A stretch of 34,680 nucleotides of DNA, from contig JADZAK010000113.1 in NCBI GenBank assembly GCA_020852595.1, forward strand, positions 1-34,680, in the 5' to 3' direction. This document shows positions 731 through 34,282 of this stretch, piece after piece. This DNA comes from Rhodospirillaceae bacterium (GTDB lineage: Bacteria > Pseudomonadota > Alphaproteobacteria > Rhodospirillales > Rhodospirillaceae). Numbering within the stretch: the first letter of the stretch is position 1; every line of letters starts with the position of its first letter. Under the pieces are notes generated by a model that searched no databases, had not been told where the DNA came from, and saw only the letters and a program-made list of their open reading frames with translations. A program made the translations under genes and the position numbers.

Positions 731-2044
731 ATGCGGTCGTGTTTTTTCGTCGTTTGCGCGGTTTTAGCTGTGAGCGCGCCGACGTCCGTTGTTATTGCTC
801 AGTCGCTGGAGGCTGAGCTGCGCGGCCTTGCGAGCGACCATCCCATGATCAAATCCGCCGAAGCGCAGCGCGCCGCCGGCGCGCAGGGCCTGCGGGCGAC
901 GCTGTCGCCGTTCCTTCCGACCCTGGATGTCGCGGGCGGCAACGGCTACGAGCGCATCAACACACCCGCGTTCCGCGCTTCGCCCGACGGCCCGTTCGAT
1001 ACGGACGCCGAGAACTACGCGCTGACCTTGCGCGAGAACATCTTCGACGGCGGCCGCAAGTTCGCGAACCGCCGCGCCGCCCGCCTGCAGCTCAACGTGC
1101 TCGATCTGTCGCTGACCAACACGCGTCAGAATGTCCTGTACGAGGGCGCCATGGCTTATATCAACGTGCTGCGCCAGGCCGAACTCGTGACATTGACCTC
1201 GCAGAACGGGGACAACATCAGAAGGCAGCTGAACCTCGAAGACGAGCGCGTGCGCCGCGGGTCGGGCATCAGCGTCGACGTCCTTCAGGCAAAGTCCCGG
1301 CTTCAATTCTCGATGGAGCGTTTTGTCGCGACGCGCGGCGCGCTCGACGAAGCCCGCGCGCGCTATCTTCAGGTCTTCAGCCATCCGCCCGAGCAGAAGG
1401 GCATGGCGCTGCCGCCGCCGCCCGACCGCCTGTTGCCCAAGACCGTCGAGGACGCGGTCGCCATCGCCCTGGCCGAGAACGCGCAGGTCGAAAGCGCCAA
1501 CAAGCGCATCGATATCGGCGAAGAGCAGCGCGACGCGATCAATGCCGAATATTATCCGAGCCTCGATATCGTCCTGCAAAGCAAGTACGAGCGCGACTTC
1601 AACGGCGCGCCCGGCATCCGCCGGGACAAGTCGGCGAAAGTGCAGGCCACATGGACGTTGTTCAGCGGGCTCTCGACCCAGTCGCGCGCCGCGCAGGCGG
1701 CCGCCGACACCGATGCGCGGCGCGCGGACTATCAGCAGGCCCGCCGCAAGATCGAAGAGCAGACGCGCCTTGCGTGGCACGCGCTGCAGACCGCCAACGA
1801 GCGCGTCGGTCTTCTCGAGAACGCCGTCAACATCGCTTCGGAAGTGTTCGGCTCGCGCACCAAGTTGCGCGAGGCGGGCAAGGAAACCGTGATCAACGTT
1901 CTCGATGCCGAGAACGAAGTGTTTTCGGCGCGCATCAACTACGCCTCGGCTCTCTACGATGCGCGGCTTGCGGCCTATCAGCTCCTGCTCGCGATCGGGC
2001 GGCTGGAAGCAGAGGCCGTCTCCGCAGGCGCGGCGGCGAAATAG
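731..2044 (+). CDS. TolC-like outer membrane channel of a type I secretion system
   Basis: This 437-residue protein starts with a signal peptide (MRSCFFVVCAVLAVSA..., likely cleaved after about residue 24, ...VIAQ). The mature part has the duplicated TolC layout: helical segments rich in Ala, Glu and Gln, with the pattern LRENIFDGGRK (about residues 100-110) in the first repeat and the matching ATWTLFSGLSTQSRAAQAA (about 305-323) in the second. These are the two strand-to-helix transitions of OEP-family channels. Length and architecture fit the type I secretion outer membrane component family. It would form the trimeric channel-tunnel through the outer membrane for export of the giant RTX protein encoded immediately downstream, working with the ABC exporter and HlyD adaptor at 15.4-18.5 kb. 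Confidence 0.92.
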   Translation: MRSCFFVVCAVLAVSAPTSVVIAQSLEAELRGLASDHPMIKSAEAQRAAGAQGLRATLSPFLPTLDVAGGNGYERINTPAFRASPDGPFDTDAENYALTLRENIFDGGRKFANRRAARLQLNVLDLSLTNTRQNVLYEGAMAYINVLRQAELVTLTSQNGDNIRRQLNLEDERVRRGSGISVDVLQAKSRLQFSMERFVATRGALDEARARYLQVFSHPPEQKGMALPPPPDRLLPKTVEDAVAIALAENAQVESANKRIDIGEEQRDAINAEYYPSLDIVLQSKYERDFNGAPGIRRDKSAKVQATWTLFSGLSTQSRAAQAAADTDARRADYQQARRKIEEQTRLAWHALQTANERVGLLENAVNIASEVFGSRTKLREAGKETVINVLDAENEVFSARINYASALYDARLAAYQLLLAIGRLEAEAVSAGAAAK

Positions 2045-2140
2045 ACCTGAACCCCGAGCAGGGCGGCCGACCCGCTCCTCGCTCCATAAGTATTGGCGGG
2101 CCACTTGCGCACCGATTTTAGACCAGGGGAATCATCTCAA

Positions 2141-8100: not shown

Positions 8101-11100
8101 CGACTGGTTCAGCGGCGACGTTTCGCGCGTCAGCGTGTGGGAGACGGCGCTCGACTCCTACGCGGTCGCGGCGCTCACCGACATGGACCCGTTGTCGGAC
8201 ATGAATTCGGAAGGACTGGTCGCTTTTTATTCCTTCGCCGACGGCCAAGGGTCCAACGCCGCGGATTCGGTGACGGGCGTCACGGGCGTCTATACCGGCG
8301 CGGTCTCGGGCAGTCCGGAATGGATCGTGCCCGCGCCGCCCATCGGGCGAGGCGGCTATGACTTCGAGGTGCTGGAGGATACGCCGTTCACGTTCCGCGT
8401 GACGGCCCGCGATCCCGATCAGGGCGCGCTGCTGTCCTTCACCGTGGATTCCGGGCCGACGTCCGGCACCATCAGCGGGCCGCGTTATATCAACGGCGGC
8501 ACGGTCGAATTCACCTATACCCCCGACCCCAACTACGTCAGCAGCCCGACGCCGGACCAGATCACCGTCAGCGTCAACGACGGCACCGCGCCGCCGGTGA
8601 CGCAGGTCATCACGTTTCACGTCAATTACGTGAACGACCGGCCCATCCTGCTCGGCTTGAACGAGATCCCCGACGTCGAGGAGGGAGAGACCGATCCGGC
8701 CGGCGTCTCCCTCGCGGACATTTTCGCGGGCCAGTTCCTCGATCCCGACGGCTCGTTCATCGGGGCCGTCGTCGTCGGCAACGAAGCCGACCTCGTGACG
8801 CAGGGCACATGGCAATGGTCGCCGGACAGCGGCACGACCTGGCACGACATCGGCGCCGTCGCCAACGACGGAACCGGCCTGATCCTGTCGGTCGGCACGC
8901 AGCTCCGCTTCGTGCCCGCGGCGTCCTTCCCGCCGGGCTCTCCGCCCTCCCTGCTGGTGCGCGCCCTGGATTCGGCGTACGCCGGCGCATTCTCGACGAG
9001 CAGCGGCGGCGGCCGCGTGAGCGTGGGCGACCAGATCGCAAGCCACACCATTCTCATGGGACCGCCGACGCCTCTTGTCGTCGAGGTGGTGCCGCAGAGC
9101 GCGGTCACGGCGCTCTTCACCGGTTCGGACGACGATTGGTTCAACACCGCGAACTGGTCGATCAGCGCGGTTCCCGGCACGAACGCCGACGTCGTCCTGA
9201 ACGGCAGCGACGACGTGCTGTTCGACAACGGCCAGCCGTACGGCGGGGCAAACGCCGTCCACTCGATTCATCTCCAGGATTCCGCGCACCTGACCATCGC
9301 GCGCAACGGCACCGATACGGGCCTCGGCGTTCTCGGCAACGTCGATATCGCGACATCTGCGCAGGTGACGATGGAAGGCGGCGACGCCCTTGCCGTCGGC
9401 GGCGACATGACCGTGGACGGCGTCTTCGCGGGCACGGCGGGCGCGCTGCTCTTCAGCGACGAATCGTCGCCGGACTTCACGGTTGACGGCCTGATGGAGT
9501 TCGTCGACGCCGACTTCTCCATCGACGGCGAGGACAGCTCCAGCCTGCCCAACATCTACAACGCAGGTTTTATGGATATCGTCGTCGCGAACGACGATTC
9601 AACGCTCGAGATCGAGTACGCCAACTCCTTCCAGAATACCGGCGTGATCCGGCTCTTCAACAGCCTCACGGGCAATCACGACGCCGTGCTCCACCTTCTC
9701 GGGAGCGGGCAATTCGTCAACACCTCGGGCGGCATCGTCCGGTTCCACGGCAGCGACAACGGCACACGCCGCATCGAGCTGACGGGGCAGATGGTGAACG
9801 TCGGCAGCGCCACGTCCGGCCAGGAGTCGACGATCGACGTGAACGCCGACGCCGTCATCGGCGGAAGCTCGATCCTCAATACGGGCATCATCGACGTCGC
9901 CGCCGGCAAGACGCTGACCTACTACGGCAACAGCTACGGCTCGGCTTACCTGCACATGCAGAACGCCGGCTCCTTCCAAGGCGCTTTCGCCGGCACCGGG
10001 ACCGTGTTCTTCGACGATTCCCAGGACGGCGGCGCCGACGCCTACTTCAGGACCTACGACGGCTTCACGCTGCAGGCGGGCGGCCCGACCCTCAGGTTCG
10101 GCAGCTTCGACGGCAACAACTCCGCCCGCTGGACCGCGGACGGCCTTACGACCATCAACGGCGTCGTGAACGTCACCGTCCTGACCATCGGCGGTTCCAA
10201 CGCCCAGTTCGTGGTCAACGGCACGGTCAACGTGACCGGCGGCGTCGCGGGCGCGAACAATATCCATGCCAGCCTGTTCGCGTCCTCGAATTACAACAAC
10301 ACGACCGCTTTCCGCATCGGCTCCGCCGGAACCTTGAATCTCGCCGCCGGCACCCTCGCCAACGACGCGACCGTCAACGCAGACCTCTGGTACAACGTCA
10401 CGAACGACGGCACGATCAACATCACCTCGAACGGCGCCGACGTCTCGTTCTATAACAGCGGTTCCTACGACTATCTCAACCCGTCAAGTCCCAACAACCA
10501 GGGATTCACCAACAACGGCGCCATCAACGTGTCGGGCACGGGGGCGGCGTCCATCGGGTCCAGCAATTTCGTCAATGCGGCGGCGGGTGTGCTGACCCTC
10601 GCGATGGATACGCGCTTCTACGGCCGGGGCTTCAACCTCGGCGAGATCGTGCTCCATGGCGGAACGACGCTCGTTCTCGACGCCAATACCGACTTCGTTT
10701 TCGAAACCGGGTCGGAATTGACCTATACGGGCACGGGGATCGCGACCGTCGCCCTCCAGGGCGGGGCGAGTTCCAATCTCGACGAGTCCTATCTCGTCTT
10801 CAAGGACGACTTCACGCTTGCGCAGAACGTGAGGTTCGTCATCGGCCAGCCGGGAACCGCCTATAACTACGTCAGCCACGTATATAGCGACGGGTCCTCC
10901 TTGACCTTCACCGTGGAAGGCGGCCTCGACTTCAATCGCGGCTCGCTGACCTACGACACGGTCCTGGTCAAGAACGGCGGCTTCATTCAAGCCATCGACG
11001 CCGGTTCGTCGGGCGTCGGCGCCGAGGTCACGGTGGAGAGCGGCGGGCGGATCGACGTCAAGGAGACGGGCAACGATATGCTGACGTTCTCCAACGGCCT

Positions 11101-12928: not shown

Positions 12929-12943
12929 GCCGGCGGCGCGGAT

Positions 12944-15316
12944 TTACTTGCTCGTGGCCACATAGACGCCGTCCCAGTCCGCGCCCGGCGGGGCGAGGCG
13001 GAATTCGGCGATGCGTTCGGCGACGATGTCGTAGAAGGCGAGCAGTTCCGTCACCAGTCCCGCATGCGCGCGGACAATGGCGCGCGCCGCCTCCATGCGG
13101 CGGCCCGCTTCGTCCCACCGTTGGGCGCGATAGGCGGCCAATACGGCGTCGTGCGTCCGCTTGAGTTCGACGAACCAGGACTGTTCTTTCAGCTCGGGCG
13201 CGCCGACGAGGGTGAAGATGCGCACGGCCTGCTTCTTGCCCTTGACCTTGATGAGGTCGAGTTCGAGCAGCGGGTACATATCGGCGAGCGCGGCGCTGTT
13301 TTCGCCGACGACGACGGTGACGCCGTAGGACTTGGACTGGCCCTCGAGGCGCGACGCGAGGTTGACGCTGTCGCCGAGCACCGAATAGTCGAAGCGCTGC
13401 TCGCTGCCCATGTTGCCGACGCAGGCGATGCCGGAGTTGATGCCGATGCCGACGTTGAGCACGCGGTGCTCGCGCCCCTCGGCCTTGGCTTCCGCTTCAA
13501 GCGCTTTGTTCACATCCTTCACCGCCTGCACCATGCCGAGGGCGGCTTTGCAGGCGCTGGGGCCGTGGTCCTTGACTTCGAGCGGCGCGTTCCAAAAGGC
13601 CATCACGCAGTCGCCCATATATTTGTCGATCGTCCCGTTGGTCGACAGGATCACGTTGGTGAGCGGCGTCAGGAGCCGGTTGATGAGGCGCGTGAGCCCT
13701 TGCGCGTCGAACAGCTCGGAGATCGACGTGAACCCGCGGATATCCGAGAACATAAAAGTCATCTCGCGGTTCTCGCCGCCGAGCGTGAGCTTGGAGGGGT
13801 CGTCGGCGAGTTTTTGCACCAGGGCCGGCGAGAGGTATTGGCCGAAGGCGCTGCGGACCTGCTTGCGCTGAGATTCCGTACGCATGTATCCGGCGAAGGC
13901 GAGGAAGGCGTAGAAGAGGAAGGCCGATGCGATCGGGAACGTGGGATCGATCAGTTCCAAGCGCGAGGCAAAGGAGTCCCACGAGTACCAGGCGAATCCC
14001 CCGGACACGGCCGCGAAGACCGCGAACCCGGGGCCGATGCCCACCATGGGGGTTATGACGATCATGATCGTGCCGATGACCGTCGCTGCGATCAGCTCGG
14101 CCGCGAGCGCGTAGTTCGGATACTTGAGCTGGTTGTCGAACAGCACGTTCTCAAGGATGTTGGCGTGGGCTTCGACCCCCGGCATCACCGAGTCCAGCGG
14201 CGAGGCGCGCAGATCCGCGAGCAGGCCCGTCGCGGACATGCCGACAAGGGCGTATTTGCCCTTGAGGGCGTCGGGCGCCAGCCGGTTGTGAATCACGTCG
14301 GTCGCGGAAACGTACTGCCGGCTCCAGGACGCGTGCGAGCGGAAGTACGGCCGCAGTTCGCCATGGCCGTCGGTCTCGATGACATAGGACTCGCGGCTGC
14401 GCGGCGGGCGGACGAATATTTGCGTGACGCCGAGCAGCGAAGCGTCGGTGGCGATGCCGATCGTACGCCCGCGCAAGCCGACCCGCAGCATTTCAAGGAT
14501 CAGCGAGGGATACAGCGTGTCGTCGTTCGTGACGACGATCGGGACCGAGCGGACGATGCCGTCGAGGGACTTGTCGGAGAGCGCAAACACGCCGCGGCCC
14601 GCGGCCGCCTGGTCGAGTTCCGGCAAGGGGCGCAAGACGCTTTGCCCCCGCGTGAGATAGGGCATCGGGTTGTCGCCGATCACCGCAAAGGAGGTGCGCG
14701 GCGGAACACCCTTGTAATCGAGCGTTTCCCGGACGGTGGTCTGGCCCAGGACGACCTTGCCGCTTTGCTTGATGGCGGCGGCGAGGATCGCATCGTTGGT
14801 CGGCACGCCCAGCAGGCGCGCGCGAATATCGTCCGCGATCAGCCCGGCGGGAACGGATTCCACGATCTTGGCGACAGAGGTTTGGTCGGGTTCGGAGAAC
14901 ACGATGTCGAAGCCGATGACGTTCACGCCGAGCGCGGTTGCGTTTGTAATCAAGTCCGCGACCGCGGTGCGCGGCCATGGAAACTGGCCCAGCTCGTTGA
15001 TGCTCTTCTGGTCGATGTCGAGGACGACCACGGGACTTTCGGCCGGCATCTCGCGCGGTTTCAAAACCTGGTAGAAGTCGAACACGCGGGCGCGCAGGAC
15101 CTGAAGGGCGACGGGATCGTCGATGCGCACGAACAGCAACCCGAGCAGCACGAGGAGCGTGGTGAGCCGCCCGGACTGCATCATCGCGCCGCGGAACCAG
15201 CGGCCCCACCAGCGCAGGCTCAGCGCATTGGCCCATGGAACAGACCGGATTTTCGCGCCGATTTTCCCAGCCACGCGGGCCTTGGCGCCGTCTGTAGAGT
15301 GAATATCGTCCCGCAC
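12944..15316 (-). CDS. CHASE2-domain membrane adenylate cyclase (class III)
   Basis: About 790 residues. GTG at 15316-15314 is preceded by GGGGGA seven bases upstream; the frame stays open further upstream but that part would overlap the divergent exporter gene. An N-terminal hydrophobic segment (SGRLTTLLVLLGLLFV) is followed by a CHASE2 sensor (about residues 60-395, including VVVLDIDQKSINELGQFPWPR), a cluster of transmembrane helices (about 400-482) and a class III cyclase domain (about 510-690). Visible cyclase motifs are FSDIRGFTS (metal Asp), GTIDKYMGDCVMAFWNAP (second metal Asp), LGDSVNLASRLEG (Asp plus the transition-state Asn/Arg pair) and KVKGKKQ. These fit ATP-to-cAMP conversion gated by an extracytoplasmic signal. 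It converges on the giant protein gene with a 15-bp gap and is divergent from the exporter, so co-regulation with surface protein secretion is plausible but inferred. Confidence 0.9.
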   Translation of the reverse strand: MRDDIHSTDGAKARVAGKIGAKIRSVPWANALSLRWWGRWFRGAMMQSGRLTTLLVLLGLLFVRIDDPVALQVLRARVFDFYQVLKPREMPAESPVVVLDIDQKSINELGQFPWPRTAVADLITNATALGVNVIGFDIVFSEPDQTSVAKIVESVPAGLIADDIRARLLGVPTNDAILAAAIKQSGKVVLGQTTVRETLDYKGVPPRTSFAVIGDNPMPYLTRGQSVLRPLPELDQAAAGRGVFALSDKSLDGIVRSVPIVVTNDDTLYPSLILEMLRVGLRGRTIGIATDASLLGVTQIFVRPPRSRESYVIETDGHGELRPYFRSHASWSRQYVSATDVIHNRLAPDALKGKYALVGMSATGLLADLRASPLDSVMPGVEAHANILENVLFDNQLKYPNYALAAELIAATVIGTIMIVITPMVGIGPGFAVFAAVSGGFAWYSWDSFASRLELIDPTFPIASAFLFYAFLAFAGYMRTESQRKQVRSAFGQYLSPALVQKLADDPSKLTLGGENREMTFMFSDIRGFTSISELFDAQGLTRLINRLLTPLTNVILSTNGTIDKYMGDCVMAFWNAPLEVKDHGPSACKAALGMVQAVKDVNKALEAEAKAEGREHRVLNVGIGINSGIACVGNMGSEQRFDYSVLGDSVNLASRLEGQSKSYGVTVVVGENSAALADMYPLLELDLIKVKGKKQAVRIFTLVGAPELKEQSWFVELKRTHDAVLAAYRAQRWDEAGRRMEAARAIVRAHAGLVTELLAFYDIVAERIAEFRLAPPGADWDGVYVATSK

Positions 15317-15452
15317 GCGAAATCCCCCGATCCCTGAAGCGATGGAGTTTACCCCAACCTGTTGCGGCCGGTCCAACAACCGTGGGCTAAAACCCTCATT
15401 TTTCAACGAAAAATCGCTCACAAGCGGCCGCGGATGGGTTAAATTCCCGCCC
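15317..15452. promoter_or_regulatory. Divergent intergenic region between cyclase and ABC exporter
   Basis: These 136 bp separate the divergent cyclase and exporter genes and should hold both promoters. The only clear structure is a 7-bp inverted repeat, ATTTTTC (15398-15404) and GAAAAAT (15408-15414), around AAC, in a locally AT-rich patch. It could be an operator half-site pair; nothing identifies the regulator. Confidence 0.35.
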
Positions 15453-17228
15453 ATGCAGACCCTGTCCGACCCGCCCGTCCAGGACCCCGTTCCGGCCTGG
15501 CTCAGAAGCCTCCTCGCGCCGCTGAAGCCCCTCTTCAAGGAGGTGCTGGCGGTGTCGTTTTTCCTCAATCTTCTGGCCATCGCCGTGCCGGTGTTCGTGC
15601 TTCAAGTCTACGACCGCGTGATTTTCCATTCGGGCCTCAGCACGCTGCAGGGGCTGGTCATCGGGATCCTCGTGGTCATCGGCTTCGATTTCGCGCTGCG
15701 CAAGGCGCGCTCGCGCATGTTGCAGGCGGTGGCGCTGAAGATCGATGTCGAGGTTTCGAGCCGGGTGGTGAACAAGCTGCTGGCACTGCCGCTGCGCACG
15801 CTGGAATCCCGTCCCGGCAATTACTGGCACCTGTTGTTCCGCGACGCCGACGTGATCCGCAACGTGTTCTCGGGGCAAACCGCCGTGCTGGCGACGGACC
15901 TGCTCTTCGGCGGCGTCTTCCTCGTCATGATCGCGATCATCGCATGGCCGGTGTTCTGGGTGCTGCTGGTCGTCTTCGCGCTGTTTATCGCGCTGGCCTG
16001 GCATGCGGGCCGTTTCGTCGACGCGGCGGCGGACAGGGAAAAGCAAAAGGTGGTGACGCGGGATTCGCTGATCTCCGAAATCATCCTGGGCCGCACCACC
16101 GTAAAGGCGCTGGCCTTGAGCGAGCGCATGAAGGACGAGTGGGAACGCCGCCAGGGAGATTCCATCGTTGAAGGCATCAACCGCGGCGCTCAGAACGACC
16201 TCTATATGTACGCCGGGCAGAGCCTGACATTGATCGCCACCGTGGCGATGACCACCGTCGGCGCCGTGGCGATCCTCGGTCAGAACCTCACCATGGGCGG
16301 TCTCATCGCCGCCAACATGCTCTCCAACCGCTTGCTCAGCCCGATGAACCAGCTGGTGGGAACGTGGCGGACCTATTCCGCGTTCAAGCAGTCGGCGCAG
16401 CGTCTCGTGCATGTGTTCGGCGAGGCGGAGGATCTGCAGGAAAGCCCGATCCGGATGGACCGCCCGAAGGGCCGCATCACGCTGGACAACGCCACGTTCC
16501 GCTACGCCGCCGAAGCGGCGCCGGCGGTGGAGGAGATCAAACTCGAGATCCCCGCCACGGGGATGACCGCGATCATGGGGCCGAACGGCGGCGGCAAGAC
16601 GACCCTCGCGAAGATCATTCTGGGGCTCTACAAACCGGACCAGGGCAAGGTGTTCGTCGACGGCGCCGATCTTTCGCAATTCGCGCGGCGGGACCTCGCG
16701 CGCTGGATGGGCTACGTGCCGCAGGACTGCGTTCTGTTCGCCGGCACCATCCGCGAGAATATCGCCTATGCCAAACCCGAGGCGACGGACGAGGAGATCA
16801 TTCGCGCCGCGACCGCCGCGCGCGCCCACAACCTGATCGTCACCATGCCGAAAGGGTACGGCACGCCGGTGGGAGAAGGCGGAGGGCAGTTGCCCGGAGG
16901 GCTGCGGCAACGCATCGCGATCGCGCGCGCGCTGCTCGACGATCCGCCGATCCTGGTCATGGACGAGCCGACCTCAAGTCTCGACCGCGCGGGCGAAGAA
17001 GAGCTGCGTCAGAGTCTGACGGGCATGGCCAAGGACAAAACCATCATCCTGGTCACGCATAGCCCGCCGATGGTGCACGCCTGCCAGAATGTCGTGATCG
17101 TCGAGCGTGGGCGCATCAAAACGGCGGGCCCGACGCAAAAGACGCTGGAAGCGCTGGGCGCGCTCCGGCCCAGGCCGGGCGCCGAAAACACCCCGGCGGT
17201 GCGTGTCGTGGAAGGCGGCGCCGCATGA
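15453..17228 (+). CDS. Type I secretion ABC exporter (permease-ATPase)
   Basis: About 591 residues from ATG 15453; an in-frame ATG at 15342 would add 37 residues with no family character. An N-terminal transmembrane domain (about 30-290, with the QVYDRVI motif typical of PrtD/HlyB-like exporters) precedes one nucleotide-binding domain. Walker A is GPNGGGKTTL (about residue 375), the Q-loop reads YVPQDCVLF, Walker B is ILVMDEP (about 500) and the H-loop is VTHSP (about 534). The signature motif reads LPGGLRQR instead of the usual LSGGQRQR. There is no N-terminal C39-like domain, as in PrtD-type exporters that move RTX substrates without leader cleavage. The stop codon overlaps the start of the HlyD gene (ATGA), so the two are translationally coupled. 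It would energise export of the giant protein upstream. Confidence 0.93.
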   Translation: MQTLSDPPVQDPVPAWLRSLLAPLKPLFKEVLAVSFFLNLLAIAVPVFVLQVYDRVIFHSGLSTLQGLVIGILVVIGFDFALRKARSRMLQAVALKIDVEVSSRVVNKLLALPLRTLESRPGNYWHLLFRDADVIRNVFSGQTAVLATDLLFGGVFLVMIAIIAWPVFWVLLVVFALFIALAWHAGRFVDAAADREKQKVVTRDSLISEIILGRTTVKALALSERMKDEWERRQGDSIVEGINRGAQNDLYMYAGQSLTLIATVAMTTVGAVAILGQNLTMGGLIAANMLSNRLLSPMNQLVGTWRTYSAFKQSAQRLVHVFGEAEDLQESPIRMDRPKGRITLDNATFRYAAEAAPAVEEIKLEIPATGMTAIMGPNGGGKTTLAKIILGLYKPDQGKVFVDGADLSQFARRDLARWMGYVPQDCVLFAGTIRENIAYAKPEATDEEIIRAATAARAHNLIVTMPKGYGTPVGEGGGQLPGGLRQRIAIARALLDDPPILVMDEPTSSLDRAGEEELRQSLTGMAKDKTIILVTHSPPMVHACQNVVIVERGRIKTAGPTQKTLEALGALRPRPGAENTPAVRVVEGGAA

Positions 17229-18523
17229 AACCCTTCACGCGTCTTGAAAATCTCGTTGCGGCCCATAGCGCGCCGTCGTGGCGGCCGGTCTCCTGGGCCC
17301 TGATGGGCTTCATCGGCCTGTTCCTGGTCTGGTCGCTGATCGCGCGGTTCGACGAGGTCTCCGTCGCCACGGGCGAAGTGGTGCCGCAGGGGCGCATCAA
17401 GACGATCCAGCACCTCGAGGGCGGGATCATCGAGGACATCTACGTGCGCGACGGCGACATCGTGCGCCTCGACACGCCCCTGGTGCAGATCAATCTCGGC
17501 CAGCTCGCCAACAACCGCGACGAGCTTCAGATCCGCCTCGACGGGCTTCTGCTCGCGAAAGCGCGGCTCGAAGCGGAAGCGGGCGGCAAGCCTTATGTGG
17601 CCCCGGCCGAAATCGCGGCCCGGCAGCCGAAATTGGCCCAGGCCGAAGAAGCGACATACCGCGCCCGCCAGGAGGAGTTCAACGCGACGCGGGCCGTGCT
17701 CGAAGGCCAGGTCGTCCAGCGCCGGCGCGATGTGGGCGAAACCAACGCGCGCCTGACGGCGGCGGAGAACAGCCTGACGCTGGCCCGGGAGCGCTTGGCC
17801 ATCTCGCAGGATCTCCTGAAGGACGGGCTGACGTCGAAGCTCGAACACAGCCAGATCCAGAGCCAGGTGGAAGCGTTCAACGGGGAAGCGGCTTCGATGC
17901 GCGAGGCGGCGCCCCGCGCGCGCGCCGCCCTCGGCGAGGCGCAGGAACGCGTGAAGGAGTTATCCTTCAAGTTCAGCCGCGAAGCGCAGGAATTCCTGGG
18001 CGAGGCGGAGCTCAATATCGCGCGCACGAAGGAACTGCTGACCACGGCGGACGATCAGGAGACGCGCTCGACCATCAAGAGCCCGATCACCGGGATCGTG
18101 AAGAATTCGCGCTATCACACCATCGGCGGCGTGGTGCGCCCGGGCGAAGCGATCATGGATATCGTGCCGTCGGAAGACGATCTCGTCGTCGAGGCGAAGC
18201 TCAACCCGGTGGACCGCGGCTTCGTGCGCGCGGGCCAGAAGGCGACCGTGAAGATCGATACTTTCGATTACGCGCGCTACGGCGGCATCGAAGGCGAAGT
18301 GGTCTCGGTCGCGCCGGACTCGACGGTGCCGGAAAACGCGATGCCCTATTTCAAGGTCGTTGTCAGGACCGAGAAGCCCTATCTCGGGGACGAGAGCGAA
18401 GGCCTCGCCATCACGCCCGGCATGGGCGCCACGGTGGATATCCACACCGGGACGAAATCGGTCATGTCCTATCTGGTCAAACCGGTCCTCAAACTGAAGG
18501 CGGAAGCCTTCCGCGAACGCTGA
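17225..18523 (+). CDS. HlyD-family type I secretion periplasmic adaptor
   Basis: This 432-residue protein has a short cytoplasmic N-terminus, one transmembrane helix (about 23-42, WALMGFIGLFLVWSLI), a split lipoyl/biotinyl-like domain starting with IQHLEGGIIEDIYVRDGD (about 60-77), a long Ala/Glu/Arg-rich coiled coil (about 90-275), the returning lipoyl half (STIKSPITGIVKN, about 280-292) and a C-terminal beta-barrel (VEAKLNPVDRGFVRAGQ onward). This is the standard membrane fusion protein order for type I secretion. It would dock the inner membrane ABC exporter onto the TolC-like channel. The ATG overlaps the exporter stop codon by 4 bp. The gene ends one base before the stop of the convergent hydroxy-acid oxidase gene. 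Confidence 0.94.
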   Translation: MKPFTRLENLVAAHSAPSWRPVSWALMGFIGLFLVWSLIARFDEVSVATGEVVPQGRIKTIQHLEGGIIEDIYVRDGDIVRLDTPLVQINLGQLANNRDELQIRLDGLLLAKARLEAEAGGKPYVAPAEIAARQPKLAQAEEATYRARQEEFNATRAVLEGQVVQRRRDVGETNARLTAAENSLTLARERLAISQDLLKDGLTSKLEHSQIQSQVEAFNGEAASMREAAPRARAALGEAQERVKELSFKFSREAQEFLGEAELNIARTKELLTTADDQETRSTIKSPITGIVKNSRYHTIGGVVRPGEAIMDIVPSEDDLVVEAKLNPVDRGFVRAGQKATVKIDTFDYARYGGIEGEVVSVAPDSTVPENAMPYFKVVVRTEKPYLGDESEGLAITPGMGATVDIHTGTKSVMSYLVKPVLKLKAEAFRER

Positions 18524-23942: not shown

Positions 23943-24098
23943 AACCGCGTCATTTCAGGCGATTGGCACCATCGTGAGCCCGGCCGCTCATATGGGCGGG
24001 CGTTGGTTTACATATTGTTTTATTTACGTAGTTTAACTTAGCATTTTGAGATATTTGTAAACTAGATATTGGTTTAAGAAAGTGCTAGTTTGCTTAGT
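23943..24098. promoter_or_regulatory. AT-rich control region of the abiE operon
   Basis: The sequence switches abruptly from GC-rich to AT-rich around 24005-24095. TAGTTTA (24029-24035) and TAAACTA (24058-24064) form one inverted pair. Variants of TAGTTTxxCTTAG occur at 24029 and 24086, the latter continuing into the perfect inverted repeat over the antitoxin start codon. Recurrent half-sites suggest a repressor-bound operon promoter. No confident -35/-10 assignment was possible. Confidence 0.5.
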
Positions 24099-24113
24099 AT
24101 GACTAAGCAAACT
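24087..24113. promoter_or_regulatory. Perfect 12-bp inverted repeat centred on the abiEi start codon
   Basis: AGTTTGCTTAGT (24087-24098) and ACTAAGCAAACT (24102-24113) are exact reverse complements, and the 3-nt centre is the ATG start codon of the antitoxin gene. AbiEi antitoxins of characterised AbiE systems bind inverted repeats in their own promoter, so this is a good operator candidate. In mRNA the same bases could form a hairpin hiding the start codon. Confidence 0.8.
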
Positions 24114-24941
24114 GAGGCAAAGCTAAACCAACTTGAAAAGGCCCTTCCAGAAGGGCTGATAGTGGATGCCGCGTGGCTCTCCAAGCACGGTTATTCCACA
24201 TCGCTCCGCAGCCAGTATGTGGCAGCGGGGTGGCTGGAGCAGCCAGCGCGGCGCGTCTATCGCCGGCCGCGCGGAACGCTCCGTTGGGAGCAAGTCATCG
24301 TCTCGCTCCAGACCTTGCTCGATTATCCGCCGCTCATTGTCGGCGGAAGGACGGCGCTCGAATTGCAGGGCTTCGCCCACTACCTGAGCCCTACCATCCA
24401 GGAAGTTCATCTCTACGGCGGCACGCCACCGCCCAAGTGGCTTCACGCCCTCAATGTCGGCGTTCGCTTTATCTATCACAACGACAAGCGGCTGTTTCGC
24501 AACGATCCCATCACGCGCGGCCTTGGGCATGTGCAATGGAATGTGCGAACCGGGCAGACGATCCCTACCGATCCGATCCACAACGGATTAAGCGGCCCGC
24601 CGGGGCCGTGGGATTGGCCGCTGACGCTTTCGACGCCGGAGCGCGCCATCCTCGAATTGCTCGATGAATTGCCCGAGCGCGAGAGCTTCGAGCATGTCGA
24701 TAGACTCATGGAAGGTTTGTCCACCTTAAGTCCGCGGCGTCTGGATAAGCTGCTGGCCGACTGTCACAGTGTGAAGGTGAAGCGCCTTTTCTTCTTCTTT
24801 GCCGACCGCCACCCGCACGCATGGCGCAAGCGCCTCGCGGATGTGGATTTCGGCAAAGGCAAACGCATGTTGGTCAAGGGCGGCAAACTCGTACAGCCCT
24901 ACCAGATCACCGTGCCGGAGGATCTGGGTGGCTTACAGTGA
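24099..24941 (+). CDS. abiEi: AbiEi-family type IV antitoxin
   Basis: About 280 residues from ATG 24099; an upstream in-frame TTG (24090) is disfavoured. The N-terminal 60 residues form a winged-helix-like segment (EGLIVDAAWLSKHGYSTSLR...GWLEQPARRVYRRPRG), followed by the AbiEi core (IVSLQTLLDYPPLIVGGRTALELQGFAHYL) and a C-terminal basic part. This order matches AbiEi antitoxins, which repress their own operon and counter the AbiEii nucleotidyltransferase toxin without direct binding (type IV). It overlaps the toxin gene by 14 bp. Upstream sequence is AT-rich, suggesting a horizontally acquired module. Confidence 0.88.
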   Translation: MTKQTEAKLNQLEKALPEGLIVDAAWLSKHGYSTSLRSQYVAAGWLEQPARRVYRRPRGTLRWEQVIVSLQTLLDYPPLIVGGRTALELQGFAHYLSPTIQEVHLYGGTPPPKWLHALNVGVRFIYHNDKRLFRNDPITRGLGHVQWNVRTGQTIPTDPIHNGLSGPPGPWDWPLTLSTPERAILELLDELPERESFEHVDRLMEGLSTLSPRRLDKLLADCHSVKVKRLFFFFADRHPHAWRKRLADVDFGKGKRMLVKGGKLVQPYQITVPEDLGGLQ

Positions 24942-25836
24942 AGTCTATCTCCGGCAAGTCGCGCTTCTCTTGCGCGTCTTGCCGGATGTGGCGGCCGAGG
25001 CGTGTTTCGCGCTGAAGGGCGGCACAGCCATCAATCTCTTTCTACGCGATATGCCGCGCCTGTCCGTCGATATTGACCTCACATATCTGCCGGTCGAACC
25101 GCGCGCGGATTCGCTTCGCGCCATAGATGCCGCCTTGGCGCGGATCAAACAGCGCATCCAAGGCCGTGTGCCGCGTGTCCAAATCAGGGAGACGCGCAAT
25201 GAAGGTGCGGTGACGCGGCTGCTTGTACGGGCCGACAACGCCCAAATCAAAATCGAGGTGACACCGGTTCTGCGCGGTTGCGTTCTTGAGCCTCGATTGC
25301 TTCCCGTATCGGCGAAGGTCGAAGACACTTTCGCCTTTGCAGAAACCCAAGTCGTCTCATTTGCCGACCTCTACGGCGGTAAACTTGTCGCGGCCCTAGA
25401 TCGGCAGCACCCGCGCGATTTCTTCGATGTGCGGGAGCTGCTTGCAGAGGAAGGCGTGGACGACACGCTCCGGCGGGCTTTTGTCGTCTATGTCCTGAGC
25501 AGCAGCGAGCCCATCGCCAAGCTCCTGACGCCGCCCCGCAAGGACATCAGCAAGGAGTTTCTACGCGCTTTTGAGGGTATGATGGCCGAGCCGGTGCCCC
25601 TGGTGGAATTGACAAATGCGCGCGATGCCATGATTGATACGGTGGTTGGCAACATGCCGGTTGCACACCGCCAGTTTCTCGTTTCCTTCGCGCGGGGTGA
25701 GCCGGATTGGGCGCTTCTCGACGTAGCCGGGGCCGATCAGTTGCCCGCCGTCCGTTGGCGTCAGCAGAAACTCGACCAGCTCTCCCAGGATGAGCGTGCG
25801 GCGCTGGCGGCGGAGCTTGAGCAGGTTTGGGTGTAA
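24928..25836 (+). CDS. abiEii: AbiEii-family nucleotidyltransferase toxin
   Basis: About 302 residues from GTG 24928, chosen because GGAGGA (24917-24922) lies five bases upstream inside the antitoxin gene. The nucleotidyltransferase core is intact: Gly31-Gly32-Thr33 with Asn36 (LKGGTAINLF), Asp48 and Asp50 (SVDIDLTYLP), the IKIEVTP strand (about 108-114), and the family motif around LYGGKLVAALDRQHPRDFFD (about 146-165). AbiEii toxins transfer nucleotides, reported for relatives to act on tRNA acceptor ends, and cause growth arrest or phage abortive infection. The target of this copy is not known. All catalytic motifs are present, so the toxin looks functional. The pair lies between a DUF4153 gene and ettA with no integrase nearby. 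Confidence 0.9.
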   Translation: MAYSEVYLRQVALLLRVLPDVAAEACFALKGGTAINLFLRDMPRLSVDIDLTYLPVEPRADSLRAIDAALARIKQRIQGRVPRVQIRETRNEGAVTRLLVRADNAQIKIEVTPVLRGCVLEPRLLPVSAKVEDTFAFAETQVVSFADLYGGKLVAALDRQHPRDFFDVRELLAEEGVDDTLRRAFVVYVLSSSEPIAKLLTPPRKDISKEFLRAFEGMMAEPVPLVELTNARDAMIDTVVGNMPVAHRQFLVSFARGEPDWALLDVAGADQLPAVRWRQQKLDQLSQDERAALAAELEQVWV

Positions 25837-28114: not shown

Positions 28115-28747
28115 TTAATACGGCCCCAGCTTCCAAAGCGCGTCTTCCAGCGCTTTCAGTTTAGTGAAGTCGGCGGCGGGCAATTTGCTTTTCGCCGCGC
28201 GGATGAAGGCCTTGCGCTGCACGGCCTCGCCGTCGAAGACCGTGATGTAGGTCGCCGCCGCGTGCGGCACCGCGAGCTCCGGATCGTCGATCTGATTTTC
28301 CTTGGCGATGGACGCGAACAGCTTCTCCATCGCGGGCGCCCGCGCGCGGCGCGGGGTGAGGGTGGCCGGGTCTTTCCCCGGTTCACCGCGATCGATGAAG
28401 GCCCAGTCTTCCTTGCCCTGTTCGTGGTAGATGAGCCGCATGCGCGCGCCGGCCGAGGTCTCGTTGTCGCCGATGGACTGGAGCAGGATCCACTTGTCGC
28501 TGGCGGCGGTGGTTTCTTCGATGGACGTCCACAGCGCGCGGTAATCGTCCGCGCAGGTGGTCAACGCCATGTTGGCGCCTGCGAAGCCAATGGTGTCGCG
28601 GTAGAAGAGCTGACACTCACCCTTGAGCGGTTTGTAGAACGAGACTTCGTTCTCATAAGTCCAGCGCGGCAGTGCCGGCGGACTTTGTGCAAACGCGGGT
28701 GCGGCAAGAGCTAGTCCCAATCCAGCCGATATCACGAACCGCAGCAT
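28115..28747 (-). CDS. Exported protein of unknown function
   Basis: This 210-residue protein starts with a clear Sec signal peptide (MLRFVISAGLGLALAAPAFA, cleavage after AFA). The ATG is preceded by a purine-rich GAGGGCGAG. The mature part is soluble, with two Cys residues (GECQLF, LTTCADDY) that could form a disulfide in the periplasm. I do not recognise a family. It ends 3 bp from the convergent GFA gene and starts 27 bp after the stop of the CHAT tail frame on the same strand, so it could be transcribed together with the CHAT gene. Confidence 0.75.
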   Translation of the reverse strand: MLRFVISAGLGLALAAPAFAQSPPALPRWTYENEVSFYKPLKGECQLFYRDTIGFAGANMALTTCADDYRALWTSIEETTAASDKWILLQSIGDNETSAGARMRLIYHEQGKEDWAFIDRGEPGKDPATLTPRRARAPAMEKLFASIAKENQIDDPELAVPHAAATYITVFDGEAVQRKAFIRAAKSKLPAADFTKLKALEDALWKLGPY

Positions 28748-28774: not shown

Positions 28775-29479
28775 TTACCAAAATGCATCCATGATACTGG
28801 TTAAAGCCACGCGGGATTTTTTGTCTATCCCTTCCTTGATGCACTGCGGACAAAATTTCAGGTGACCAGTCACCCAGCGTACGTCGTGTTCATTATTGAA
28901 ATAACTGGGACAATCCTTTCGTGCGGTGCGCCGGGCACTATGCGATGGGACGTCGGTCAGCGAAAAAACGAGTGCATTTGCAATCATCCGCTCGATAGCG
29001 CGTTCCCCGGCCATGTAGTCTAGGTATTCGTACGTGGAAAACAGGGTGACCTTGTCATCCAAATCCGAAACGGCGGCGTACAGATCCGTGTACTTGTTGT
29101 CCCTCATCGGAAGGTTCGTAAAGGCCACAAGGTAATCGACGCCGAGCTCTTCCCGCTTGCCGCGCAGGCGTTCCGCCACATTCTCAGCATTAAGATATGC
29201 CTTTTTCTTATGCGGCACGCGCCGCCATGTCCCGAGCGGCGCGATAATATAGACAGGTTCGAAAGCGTAGACGTTCTGGCAGTCGGTCAGCTTCTCCGCG
29301 ATAGCTTCCAACTGTGGGAGTGTCCTTTGCACGTCCCATAACGCAACGCGAGTCCTGCCGCGCGCCGCCTGGCGGCGCTCGCGCTTTATTTGCGCCGTGC
29401 GAGCTGCCGGTGTCTTAACCAGAGCTGCGGCGCTATCGTCACGCGCGCATAACGTGGCTGCGGGATCGCGTGCGAACAA
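28775..29479 (-). CDS. Downstream fragment of the CHAT gene, after an in-frame stop, with Cys-rich tail
   Basis: This 234-codon frame lies in the same frame as the CHAT gene and begins within 14 codons of its TAA (29521-29519). Translating straight through gives VAVN-stop-LITGEAIDWAVPVLFARDP, and the second half reads as the natural end of a CHAT domain. The frame is therefore best seen as the separated C-terminus of one 1,158-codon gene, not an independent gene; TTG 29479 would be the only early start and has no clear ribosome binding site. Beyond the CHAT end there is an Ala/Arg-rich linker and a roughly 180-residue domain ending in CPSYFNN...HLKFCPQCIKEG. This arrangement of Cys residues loosely resembles archaemetzincin-type zinc sites, but no HExxH is visible. 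Confidence 0.6.
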   Translation of the reverse strand: MFARDPAATLCARDDSAAALVKTPAARTAQIKRERRQAARGRTRVALWDVQRTLPQLEAIAEKLTDCQNVYAFEPVYIIAPLGTWRRVPHKKKAYLNAENVAERLRGKREELGVDYLVAFTNLPMRDNKYTDLYAAVSDLDDKVTLFSTYEYLDYMAGERAIERMIANALVFSLTDVPSHSARRTARKDCPSYFNNEHDVRWVTGHLKFCPQCIKEGIDKKSRVALTSIMDAFW

Positions 29480-29518
29480 GACCGGTACCGCCCAGTCGAT
29501 GGCTTCGCCCGTGATCAG

Positions 29519-32248
29519 TTAGTTCACCGCGACGCGCGCCTCACGGGTCGCATCACCAATCGTGCGCCCTTTCGCAAGCATCCAATAGAGGTGGCGCGCA
29601 AACGCCGTCGCCGAGACATCGAGAACGCTGTATTGGTTGCCGATGACGGCCGGAACACCGGCTTCCACGAGAGCCGGGGCGATCCCTCTATTGAAATCCG
29701 CCAAACCGCCTTTGCCGGTCTCGCACGCATTCAGGAATACGAGACGTATATTTCGGCGACACACAATCTGCTGTAGGACAGACGCCTCGATCTTCTGTAT
29801 CCCGCCCGTCTGATTCTCGAAGACGAGGCACGCGGTATCTGTTCTCTGATTGTATTCGCCGTGACCGATGAAGTGCAAAATGTCGTGTTGACTGGTTTCC
29901 AACTCCTGGTGAAGCATGTCCGGCGTAGCGTCGAGCAATACGGTCACGCGAGCGAGATTGGCGTCAATCAGACGCTTGAAGCCGGTGAGGATGACCTCGC
30001 GCTCCTGATCATGTCCCAGATACGCAAGGCCCAACGGCTGCGCGACTACGACTAGAATGCGTAGTTGAGTCGAGAGTTCGGGGAAACGATCCCCCGGCAC
30101 GCCAGTGATGACGTTGCGCGTGAAATTAATCTCGGACGCGGCGAGGAAAGTTTTGCGTGCGGGGTCGTAGATGAACTCCCAGGGCAGATTGGCGATCCAG
30201 CCGATCTGCGACGTGAACATGATGTTCACTCTGCGGTTTTTCTGCTCAGCTCGCGCAACATCGTAAAGCCGTCTGACATTTCCCGGCAAAAGCGTTTCGA
30301 AGAGTGTGCAACCCAGCGCAATGAGTGCGTGAGCGTGGGGGAGGACGCTGTCGGCGCGTTCTCCGTTTATATACGCTTCGATCTCTCGCTGTGCCGTAAT
30401 AATTTCGTAGAAACGCCGGCCCGCATCCCCACCGCTTATATGAAACGGTTCGATTGCTTGAGCATTTCGAAAGGTCGCCACCAGCAGAAGGGGCGGCTCT
30501 TTCTTTTTCTTCCCGCTTCCGGCTTTTTTCTGATCTTCTTGTTGGACCGGTTCCTTTTGAGTGGCATTTGCATCCGTCGAAAGAATCGAGAGATAAAAAA
30601 TCTCGTCCGTCGATTCATCTTGCGGCTTGTGTTGCGGCCTTGCGAGGTCGATGGCGGTGGCCGGCGGTGGTGATAGGGGCGTGGCGAGTGGGGGAGATGT
30701 CATTGATCCCTCCAGAAGCGCACCCGCACCGCGGCGCGTGAGGTAAGGGAGATCGGTGCCAGGTTCGAGGATCGCGAGCGCGTGCGATTCCCCGCGAAGC
30801 GCGCGACATAGAAAATCGACGGTAGCGGGGCGGGAGAAGAACGAGATGTGACTGAGCGCCTCACCGGCCATATTCCCCCCGCGGCCGAAGCATCCAATGC
30901 GCGGACCCGGCACGGCGTCGTCAGCCAAAGGACCGAAGCGCCAGCCGCCTTCGGTAGGAACAACAAGATCGTTCGCCTGATTGAAGAAAAAATCGACGCC
31001 GACATCGGCGAATCTTTGCAGCAGCGACGCCGGGGCCTCAAAGTTAGAGGCGATGGCGGAGATTTCGACGTCGCGCGGCAGCATCGCACCGCTGCTTGCC
31101 AGGCGTTTCGGATCCATCGCCGATAACCCGGGCAGCGCGCCGACAACGCGGTGGGCGACCCAGGCCAGCCCCTCTGCGATGAACGACACGCCTTCCGTGA
31201 AGGGGTTCGCGGGAAACAGATCCATCAGATTGGACAGCCAAGTCAAAAGTCTGTCGAAGCGGTCCGGAGACGCGAGAGGTGTGCCTTGATTGGGACCCGC
31301 CACAAGAACCGCGCGGCGGATCCTGATGCGCCGCTTAAGCGCGTCGGGAATTCCAGGACTCGCAAGAGCGCGTAAAACGAGGGCGCCACGCGAATGGGTG
31401 ATGACGTCGAGCGTCGCGCCGTCCGGCAGTTCGGCGAGTAACGCTCTCGCGTTCTCTTCCGGCGTTTTGCTGACGGTGAAATGGTCAAAGACGAAAGTGC
31501 GGTCACCGTAGATCGACGCGGCCGCTTCCATAAAGGTCCGCCCGTCCGAGCCAAGGGTTTCTACCAGATCTGAGAAGCCACCCAACCCATCGGAGAATGT
31601 GCCGTGAATGAGCAGGAGATTCGGTTTGGCCGGATCGGTGCTGATACGCGATTTTCGTGCGACCGGTTGAAGCTCCTTTCCAGAAGCGGTGAGAGCTGCA
31701 AACTCTTTCAGTCCTTCGGCGCGTCCAGCGCGTTTCCATCTGTTCTGTTCCCACGCGCGCCCGAGGGTCGGCATCATTTTGTCGGCGAGAACGCCGGTCA
31801 CCTTGAGAAGGTAGGTCTTGATGACTTTGGTGACGGGGCCGCGGCGCCCGCCACTCCCCTCCGCGGGCAGCGGCACGGAAAAGCGTAACGTTCCGCCGCC
31901 GCCGTTGCGTCCGCGGCGCGTGTCGCCATCTTCCGGCAGGCGGAAGTCGATGGCGCCGGACTGGTGGCGGACCATGAGGACATAGGCGTCGCCCGCTCGC
32001 CGATGAATCTGGATGTCCAACGATGCGTGCGGTTCCGCGCCGGTCATGCGGCGCGCAGGATCGACGGCGAGCACCGCGCTGTCGAGGATCGAGAGCTTGC
32101 CTGTGTCCGCAAGCGCCGCCGCGAATGGGTCCTTTCGGATATCGGCGCTAGAGCGTCGCAGCGTCCAGCCAGAGTTTTCCGAGAGGCCAATGGTTGCGGC
32201 GCGCGCGACGGCCGGCTTCCTTGAGGGCAGGCGTTTCTTGGCGGTCAT
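29519..32248 (-). CDS. Alpha/beta-hydrolase-CHAT protease fusion protein, truncated by in-frame TAA
   Basis: 909 residues before the stop. After a beta-rich N-terminal region (1-200) comes an alpha/beta-hydrolase (about 205-500) with LLLIHGTFSD (oxyanion region), nucleophile elbow ITHSRGAL (Ser about 286) and a later HISFFS that may supply the His. A Pro- and Lys-rich linker (about 515-590, KKAGSGKKKKEPP) leads to a CHAT caspase-like domain (about 600-909) with catalytic His in ILHFIGHGEYN (about 797) and Cys in VFLNACETGKGG (about 839). CHAT proteases in other bacteria are activated by sensor domains and cleave partner proteins, often in defence. The fusion with a lipase-like hydrolase suggests a self-contained effector (inference). 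The catalytic dyad lies before the TAA, but the last CHAT strand lies after it. The transcript likely continues to 28775. No signal peptide is visible, so a cytoplasmic location is expected. Confidence 0.85.
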   Translation of the reverse strand: MTAKKRLPSRKPAVARAATIGLSENSGWTLRRSSADIRKDPFAAALADTGKLSILDSAVLAVDPARRMTGAEPHASLDIQIHRRAGDAYVLMVRHQSGAIDFRLPEDGDTRRGRNGGGGTLRFSVPLPAEGSGGRRGPVTKVIKTYLLKVTGVLADKMMPTLGRAWEQNRWKRAGRAEGLKEFAALTASGKELQPVARKSRISTDPAKPNLLLIHGTFSDGLGGFSDLVETLGSDGRTFMEAAASIYGDRTFVFDHFTVSKTPEENARALLAELPDGATLDVITHSRGALVLRALASPGIPDALKRRIRIRRAVLVAGPNQGTPLASPDRFDRLLTWLSNLMDLFPANPFTEGVSFIAEGLAWVAHRVVGALPGLSAMDPKRLASSGAMLPRDVEISAIASNFEAPASLLQRFADVGVDFFFNQANDLVVPTEGGWRFGPLADDAVPGPRIGCFGRGGNMAGEALSHISFFSRPATVDFLCRALRGESHALAILEPGTDLPYLTRRGAGALLEGSMTSPPLATPLSPPPATAIDLARPQHKPQDESTDEIFYLSILSTDANATQKEPVQQEDQKKAGSGKKKKEPPLLLVATFRNAQAIEPFHISGGDAGRRFYEIITAQREIEAYINGERADSVLPHAHALIALGCTLFETLLPGNVRRLYDVARAEQKNRRVNIMFTSQIGWIANLPWEFIYDPARKTFLAASEINFTRNVITGVPGDRFPELSTQLRILVVVAQPLGLAYLGHDQEREVILTGFKRLIDANLARVTVLLDATPDMLHQELETSQHDILHFIGHGEYNQRTDTACLVFENQTGGIQKIEASVLQQIVCRRNIRLVFLNACETGKGGLADFNRGIAPALVEAGVPAVIGNQYSVLDVSATAFARHLYWMLAKGRTIGDATREARVAVN

Positions 32249-32566: not shown

Positions 32567-34282
32567 TCAAAAAATGACTTTATAGATATTGCCATCCGAA
32601 TCCGTCGCCGCGCCAAAGCCGCTGTCGATGTTCGGGACGACGTAGTATTCCGCCTGGAAGCTGCCGCCATTGGAGCAAGCGCCAATCGCAAGTCCGCCAA
32701 CCATGCCTTCGGGATTCGCGGCAATGCCGACAACGTCCCGATATTTATCCAACAGAGAGCCGGACGCGGGTTTGGACATCAGGCTTGTCCACTTGCCGTC
32801 ACAGTTCACGCCATCGGGCCGCGTGAAAGCGAACGTGCCCGCGGTCCCCACCCCGCCCACATTGCCCGTGATGGGTTGCGTCTTTCCGCTTTTCTGGAGC
32901 GGCCCGCCGGCGGGATACATCGAGACCTGAATTCTTCGGCCGCCCGCGGCGGCAAGTTGCGTTGTCGCGGGAGGCGCCGCCACACCCGCCACGGCCAGGC
33001 CGAGCGAACGGAAAGCGTCGTCGACCGGGATAAAGAAATTCAGCCCCACGGACCCACGAAGCTTCTTTACCGCAATCGCCACGACGTTGCCCTTGTCGTC
33101 AAACATGGGGCCGCCGCTATTGCCGGGATTGATCGTCGTTTCGCTTTGGAGAATTGGACCGTCGTCATGCAGGCGATAGGCGCTGACGATGCCGCTTGTC
33201 ACCGTGCCTTCTTGCTCAACGCCTTCCGGCGAACCAATAACATAGACGGATGCGCCAACTTGCGGGCGATCAAATTGGATCGGTAAACCGACCATTCCGC
33301 CGCCCGGGGCCCTCACGAGGGCAACGTCACGCTGGGAATTGCCGGCGATCACTTCGCCGGCGATCTCGCGCCCACCAAAGAAGCGGATCTTTACACTCTT
33401 ATGTCCCTTGATGACGTGGTGGTTCGTCATGACCAGGCCATCGGCCACGTAAAATCCAGAGCCGGTGCCATCGCCCGTGAAGATCGTCACGACCTGATGC
33501 CGGAGTTCCGGGATCTGTTCGCGGAAGGACACGCTCCGCAAAGGGACACGGGGAATTTCGACCGCGGGGGCCGATTGAGGTTGCGGTGCCGGTGGGGGCG
33601 CACCTTCCGCGCCGGGCAATTTTACGGCTGCGACAAATGCCGCATCCGAGAGAAGGGCTTTCGCCGATTCACGAAAGGCCGCGAGCGCGGACTCGGACGG
33701 AATGGTTTCAGCGGCCAACTGCTTCTTCAGTTTGGCGGCGCCTTCTTTTGTGACGCGGTACACAAGTTTCTTTTCGAGCGGATCGAAAACTTGCCAATCG
33801 ACGGCGATCGAGGACTCCATCGACACGCTGATCATGCCGAAGATGTTATGGCCACAGCCTTTTTGCTTCGCGCCGACGATGGCGGCGCCGATCACAAGTT
33901 CGGGCCGCTGCTGGTCGCCGGGCGTGAAAAGGTCCGCGCTGTTTTTCCGGCCGGCGAGTTGATAGCCGGCCGCAGCGGCTTCCTCCATAAACACGTCGAT
34001 ATAATCCATGCCGGTCGCGTCTTTGAACGCGTCCGACATCACGATGGGGTAAGAGTTCGTCACGCAGAACGGATGGACGATAAATTCGCCGAGCACCGTG
34101 CTTGGTGGAACGGTGAGTCCGATGCGCTCCATCGCCATGGAGCGCGTCGGTCCGTCGACCTTGAACTGCGGCGGCGGCGGCGGAGGCGGCTCCGGTTTTG
34201 CGCGGCGCTGGGCCGCATCGGCTGCCGTCGCAGTGAGGACGAGCGCAAAAATCAGCGCGGGCAGACGTGTAGCGCGATGCAT
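32567..34282 (-). CDS. Secreted trypsin-like serine protease (S1C/DegP-like core) with N-terminal lipoprotein-type domain
   Basis: This 571-residue protein begins with a signal peptide (LPALIFALVLTATAADA) and a Pro-rich stretch. Residues about 40-215 form an unassigned periplasmic domain (VHPFCVTNSYPIVMSDAFKDATG...). The trypsin-like domain (about 250-445) carries His (TNHHVIKG, about 287), Asp (QRDVALVRAPG, about 320) and Ser (NPGNSGGPMFD, about 388), so the triad is complete. The C-terminal 120 residues are another unassigned beta-rich module. There is no PDZ domain, so this is not a classical DegP/DegQ. It would act in the periplasm or outside the cell. It reads in the same direction as the CHAT gene 318 bp downstream and is divergent from the Anbu gene. 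Confidence 0.88.
   Translation of the reverse strand: MHRATRLPALIFALVLTATAADAAQRRAKPEPPPPPPPQFKVDGPTRSMAMERIGLTVPPSTVLGEFIVHPFCVTNSYPIVMSDAFKDATGMDYIDVFMEEAAAAGYQLAGRKNSADLFTPGDQQRPELVIGAAIVGAKQKGCGHNIFGMISVSMESSIAVDWQVFDPLEKKLVYRVTKEGAAKLKKQLAAETIPSESALAAFRESAKALLSDAAFVAAVKLPGAEGAPPPAPQPQSAPAVEIPRVPLRSVSFREQIPELRHQVVTIFTGDGTGSGFYVADGLVMTNHHVIKGHKSVKIRFFGGREIAGEVIAGNSQRDVALVRAPGGGMVGLPIQFDRPQVGASVYVIGSPEGVEQEGTVTSGIVSAYRLHDDGPILQSETTINPGNSGGPMFDDKGNVVAIAVKKLRGSVGLNFFIPVDDAFRSLGLAVAGVAAPPATTQLAAAGGRRIQVSMYPAGGPLQKSGKTQPITGNVGGVGTAGTFAFTRPDGVNCDGKWTSLMSKPASGSLLDKYRDVVGIAANPEGMVGGLAIGACSNGGSFQAEYYVVPNIDSGFGAATDSDGNIYKVIF

Follow-up and report, generated by a model that had tools for sequence, protein, structure and literature searches.

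A single in-frame TAA interrupts a gene on the minus strand of a 34,680-nt stretch of DNA from Rhodospirillaceae bacterium (GenBank assembly GCA_020852595.1, contig JADZAK010000113.1, positions 1–34,680), the whole of which is referred to here as the window. The predicted protein joins a hydrolase-like DUF7379 domain to a CHAT domain, and the TAA falls at codon 910. The stop is present, the frame stays open behind it, homology lies on both sides of it, and the locus is absent from a sister species. The picture suggests a gene broken in the ordinary way, or an error in the sequence, rather than novel decoding; we consider it probable that a true, recent nonsense mutation struck codon 910 of an accessory, probably acquired gene. 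The interruption had been proposed in an earlier inspection of the DNA letters (hereafter the sequence-only reading), and both the stop and the open frame were found as it claimed. It left the choice between a nonsense mutation, a sequencing error, readthrough and a real split; our analysis narrows this to two, a nonsense mutation and an error in the consensus sequence. The features of the gene, all on the minus strand, are as follows.

29519..32248, minus: upstream open reading frame (ORF), 909 aa plus stop, with DUF7379 and CHAT (ORF and domain scans)
31106..31618, minus: DUF7379 domain, residues 211–381, with HGTFS at 215 and THSRGA at 284 (Pfam)
29483..30307, minus: CHAT domain interrupted by the stop, with HFIGHG at residue 792 and FLNACETG at residue 838, both upstream of the stop (Pfam and alignment)
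29519..29521, minus: in-frame TAA, codon 910 (sequence)
28775..29518, minus: downstream open stretch, 247 codons plus TAA, with ~200 codons after the end of CHAT that have no convincing relative
29462..29509, minus: GEAIDWAVPVLFARDP, last CHAT strand by alignment, downstream of the stop; the strand lies in a low-confidence part of the structure model
28841..28942, minus: Cys/His cluster near the end, tail residues H193, C203, H211, H219, C223 and C226 (sequence)

The reading frame across the stop

The upstream ORF starts with an ATG at 32248 and runs for 909 codons to the TAA at 29521–29519. Past this codon the frame remains open from 29518 to 28778, which gives 247 sense codons before the next TAA (28777–28775), and the whole frame including the downstream stretch comprises 1157 codons. 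The sequence-only reading had counted 248 further codons and a total of 1,158; the frame is right, and those figures fit only if a stop codon is counted. Chance would leave 247 codons open with a probability of ~0.0012 at the base composition of the window and of 5e-5 at that of the region itself, and the downstream stretch has 4, 6, 10, 11 and 11 stops in its other five frames. The guanine-plus-cytosine content at codon positions 1/2/3 is 0.60/0.445/0.65 downstream of the stop compared with 0.65/0.48/0.68 upstream, and because of this resemblance the downstream part looks coding. The codon scores of its first two thirds are +0.05 and +0.43. Moreover, there is no second stop or frame shift across the 247 codons and their composition is mostly coding-like, hence the mutation would be recent. 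A promoter scan returned 0 sites, terminator-like sites numbered six against 4.8 expected, and an Rfam scan of the window gave no match.

Homology on both sides of the stop

The identity of the protein as hydrolase-like and CHAT-containing is borne out by Pfam, with both domains above their curated cut-offs: DUF7379 (PF24096) scores 144.7 bits against a cut-off of 33, and CHAT (PF12770) scores 104.9 bits in the upstream ORF against a cut-off of 24. We take DUF7379 to be an alpha/beta-hydrolase, in which HGTFS and THSRGA presumably form the oxyanion loop and the nucleophile elbow. The CHAT match spans residues 648–908 and profile positions 6–266 of 289; it ends ahead of the stop, and the domain is thus not complete in one uninterrupted frame. 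A CHAT search across the source genome found one place, with ‘1 TAA’ inside it.

A search of 72,556 plasmid records gave 27 matching records, three of which (H1, H6 and H10) were taken for comparison; with P0001 as query, 54 plasmid records matched and none was added. Coverage reaches 80% or more in a single record, which carries SPO_RS20450 of Ruegeria pomeroyi, a protein 33.4% identical to the window protein over query residues 52–909 (expectation value, E, 2e-119). This protein has Tyr at the position of the TAA, followed by GQSMDWAIPVAYARDP, where the window has the GEAIDWAVPVLFARDP given above (10 of 16 identical), and it terminates 36 residues past the Tyr. Relatives from Thermoflexus sp. 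and a Chloroflexi bacterium also have Tyr at the stop position; the search for these returned three loci, the third being too short to reach the stop point. When the post-stop peptide was compared with the C-termini of these three relatives, which are the closest, it scored 70 (Ruegeria), 50 and 57. None of 5000 shuffles did as well in any of the three comparisons, nor did any of 5367 37-mers drawn from ten genes of the window, and the remaining two frames of the same strand score 14–21.

The alignment through the stop point holds 11 relatives, all of them distant. It leaves out L017, the contig of which ends early, L003, L008, L011, L012 and L013, which matched outside CHAT only, L006, which is the same gene as L014, and a second weak match in L020. 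All 11 continue through the stop point with a sense residue, which is Tyr in the three closest, so that the Tyr earlier expected of intact relatives is present in those three. The sequence-only reading had asked whether homologues end at the same point, with the downstream part encoded as a separate gene; we found all 11 running through it and no convincing separate gene. The His-Gly and Cys columns of CHAT are also common to all 11, and we assume that these motifs have a catalytic role. A profile built from the upstream ORF and the Ruegeria protein matches the source genome straight through the stop, its post-stop part resting on the Ruegeria row. These comparisons agree with the earlier suggestion about the residues after the stop: as judged from the sequences, the post-stop peptide is the last CHAT strand and the stop interrupts the domain. 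Viral contigs held no relative for the gene profile, nor for the exact bases around the stop.

A structure model of the read-through CHAT piece, made from an alignment of 3 sequences, has a mean predicted local distance difference test (pLDDT) score of 62.3. It places the stop within the last helix (268–284), with a strand (294–298) next, the helix end and the strand being of low confidence. Foldseek with this model returned the SAVED-CHAT protease structure 8tl0 first, the anti-sigma factor DdvA second and then caspases, with template-modelling scores (TM-scores) to the query of 0.32–0.46 among the 50 matches listed. We therefore hold with moderate confidence that the modelled piece would have a caspase-like fold.

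The first ~20–30 codons past the stop complete the CHAT domain. Because the ~200 codons that follow have no convincing relative, homology vouches only for those first codons. The C-terminal parts past CHAT differ between groups of relatives, thus an extra domain after CHAT would be ordinary. For this tail Pfam listed DUF885 (E 0.026), DUF1428 (0.079) and TniQ (0.15), all under the cut-off; NCBIfam, PHROGs, PADLOC and the PDB gave no match, and plasmids, phages and viral contigs gave weak matches or none. In whole genomes other than its own, sampled in overlapping sets, the tail matched 0 of 197 relatives (E 0.001), 1 of 397 from the phylum (E 0.01) and 3 of 384 from the class (E 0.01). Two of these four genomes (L022 and L081) match tail residues 104–196 at 35.8 bits each and have a DUF1428-like look, and the best of 200 shuffled tails reached 32.0 bits against their ORFs. 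Though somewhat above the shuffles, these two were picked as the best among hundreds of genomes, and we therefore give the tail no identity. A suspected likeness to zincin-type proteins is supported by no search, and a single-sequence structure model of the tail (mean pLDDT 38.4) was of no use. The Cys/His cluster near the end is possibly a metal site.

Explanations for the stop codon

We propose that a recent nonsense mutation struck codon 910 of an accessory gene whose frame spans 1157 codons, and that translation now halts there. In this view the gene encodes an alpha/beta-hydrolase-like domain (DUF7379), a caspase-like CHAT domain joined to it and an additional C-terminal part. Because the stop follows both HFIGHG and FLNACETG, the predicted product would keep the CHAT His and Cys as well as the DUF7379 motifs, and would lack the final CHAT strand and the C-terminal part. 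Such a truncated caspase-like protein is probably unstable or inactive. We infer a genuine base at this position, a recent origin of the mutation and a loss of function.

Several observations weigh against this proposal. The last third of the downstream stretch fails to score as coding (−0.16). Tyr is not general among the relatives, since the other eight of the 11 have I, A, E, K, G, S, A and R at the stop column, where their alignment is looser. When the stop was read as X, the Pfam CHAT match extended to profile position 283 with a gain of just 1.8 bits. Moreover, no homologue is confirmed for the remaining ~200 codons of the frame, and the searches yielded no relative close enough to compare non-synonymous with synonymous substitution rates (dN/dS) on either side of the stop. 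The last such point is the rival that survives best, namely a consensus or strain-mixture error in the draft assembly, so that the TAA would be a wrong base and the gene intact in the organism. We regard this as unlikely, while giving it real weight: the source genome is a 259-contig draft with 2.33% contamination, the change is isolated in an otherwise clean frame, and among the genomes searched near it the full-length copy occurs in this genome only. Against such an error, isolated wrong bases are uncommon in assemblies, whereas real nonsense alleles in accessory genes are common.

The 909-residue protein might instead be the working form, with the downstream stretch translated separately or left as a relic. 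The position of all the CHAT and DUF7379 motifs upstream of the stop would suit this, as would the in-frame TTG and GTG codons downstream and the poor codon score of the last third. However, all 11 aligned relatives have the stretch that the cut removes. In-frame ATG codons are missing from the first 130 codons past the stop, and the earliest of the usual start codons, TTG 29479, falls within the CHAT strand and shows no clear ribosome site by eye. We see little chance that this explanation is right. A separate downstream gene in particular was rejected on the position of that TTG, together with the lack of any convincing relative of the tail as a gene of its own.

Programmed or regulated readthrough of the TAA, yielding a minor full-length product, would agree with a frame that is open on both sides of the stop. 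In-frame stops are, according to passages of a survey of bacterial genes, widespread and on average under purifying selection; the same passages describe most of them as short-lived and proceed on the assumption that functional recoding is absent in most (Belinky et al. 2021, PMC7918605). In the window the TAA is an ordinary end of genes, closing 5 of 12 neighbours (those for the CHASE2-cyclase, DUF4153, AbiEii and EttA, and the gene at 28115–28747). A stop-reading anticodon was found in none of the 39 transfer RNA (tRNA) genes of the source genome, a set that is incomplete because it has no tRNA for His or Ile and, for Ala, just the anticodon CGC. The RNA past the stop folds no better than chance (z 0.70 and −1.08). 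On these three grounds recoding is unlikely, and we give readthrough only a very slight probability. A literature search found nothing that joins a CHAT domain with a stop codon or readthrough in bacteria. Reassignment of the code, already thought unlikely in the sequence-only reading, was rejected as unlikely given the ordinary use of TAA in the neighbouring genes and the lack of a stop-reading tRNA among the 39. Least credible of all, we can hardly believe that the stop is a switch, by which a short hydrolase-CHAT protein would be made and rare readthrough under stress, for example during infection, would add the final strand and the Cys/His-rich domain, keeping an effector off until translation is disturbed.

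An accessory gene and its possible role

The genes on either side of the proposed nonsense allele are the following.

28115..28747, minus: flanking gene of unknown function, common to the sister genome G002 (86–89% identical; comparison)
32567..34282, minus: flanking trypsin-like gene with relatives in genus mates, bordering the accessory insert (comparison)

In G002, a genome of the same genus, the matched parts of both flanking genes are 10 bp apart, the contig covering the last 111 codons of the trypsin-like gene, and 54 bp separate the aligned DNA blocks compared with 3872 bp in the window. The AbiEi/AbiEii toxin–antitoxin pair at 24090–25836, ~3 kb off, is likewise missing there in G002 (55 bp versus 2038 bp), and AbiEi was matched in 1 of 18 other genomes of the genus, over residues 1–95. 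Searches by tblastn with either half of the gene found none in five genus-mate loci around the trypsin-like gene, some of which extend just 1–3 kb past it. No match was obtained at E 1e-20 in 72 other genomes of the family or at E 1e-15 in 384 others sampled from the class, and weaker partial matches occurred in 9 of 98 other relatives at E 0.001; several of the compared genomes are incomplete drafts. Because this locus and the nearby AbiEi/AbiEii pair are missing in G002 and the other searched genomes have no strong match, the gene is accessory and lies in a stretch that varies between species. Its absence in neighbours suggests that it was gained here rather than lost elsewhere. Among the repeats listed around the insert (20 of 34 direct families and 25 of 27 inverted pairs), none exceeds 27 nt, nearly all are imperfect, and no mobile-element mark was recognised.

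The source genome carries a second AbiEi-like copy (68%) on another contig, C196. The matches to the trypsin-like gene in three genus mates (L027, L029 and L038) contain one in-frame stop each (TAA in G011, TAG in G010 and TAA in G009), thus this neighbour may be decaying in several species. Farther off, a secretion-like set at 731–18523 surrounds the CHASE2-cyclase gene, which is on the other strand.

731–2044: outer membrane efflux protein
2093–12928, plus: 3611-codon ORF
15342–17228: ABC transporter
17225–18523: HlyD

The closest layout to that of the window protein is found in SPO_RS20450 on the megaplasmid of Ruegeria pomeroyi DSS-3 (WP_051420469.1), which has the same DUF7379 and CHAT arrangement; it is uninterrupted, and nothing in it corresponds to the final ~200 codons of the window gene. 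The Ruegeria gene (L019:5860-12664) is followed by a SIR2/AAA_21 ATPase gene and then by a 297-aa protein that to the eye resembles HNH proteins and matches nothing in Pfam at E 0.01. This Ruegeria cluster may be a defence operon.

The SAVED-CHAT protease shares the caspase-like CHAT fold with the window protein, and its structure (PDB 8tl0) ranks first in the PDB whether the search uses the sequence profile (E 2.4e-11) or the fold (E 5.9e-9, with a TM-score of 0.45). PADLOC SAVED_CHAT matches at E 2.3e-11 over residues 728–901, in the CHAT part only (profile positions 102–253 of 498), and PADLOC BovA matches residues 768–905 at E 3.2e-8. In contrast with SAVED-CHAT, which has a SAVED sensor, the N-terminal part of the window protein is DUF7379, and Pfam gave no SAVED match in it at E up to 1.

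In one class of nucleoside triphosphate-dependent conflict systems, as described in passages of a 2020 eLife paper by Kaur and others, a caspase-superfamily domain always occurs with a neighbouring alpha/beta-hydrolase gene (PMC7159879). The window protein pairs a caspase-superfamily peptidase with an alpha/beta-hydrolase in like manner, in one fused protein where those systems, in the same passages, have neighbouring genes. The word CHAT has 0 occurrences in that source, and its passages at hand mention no caspase-hydrolase fusion. Because the pairing is described there, the fusion fits an effector of such a conflict system. Domain scans of 21 ORFs in the window list neither MoxR nor vWA; VMAP was not searched by name. 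By analogy, the protein may serve the organism as a conflict (anti-invader) effector, and the gene is probably an acquired defence gene.

For annotation the allele carries a warning, as gene callers would give a CHAT protein of 909 residues with the end of its fold missing. Readthrough, if true, would be an unusual restraint on a caspase-like effector, and nothing here points to it. The gene instead illustrates clearly how an accessory caspase-like gene, probably linked to defence, can carry one nonsense codon and no other visible damage, as one might expect were such an effector costly to keep.

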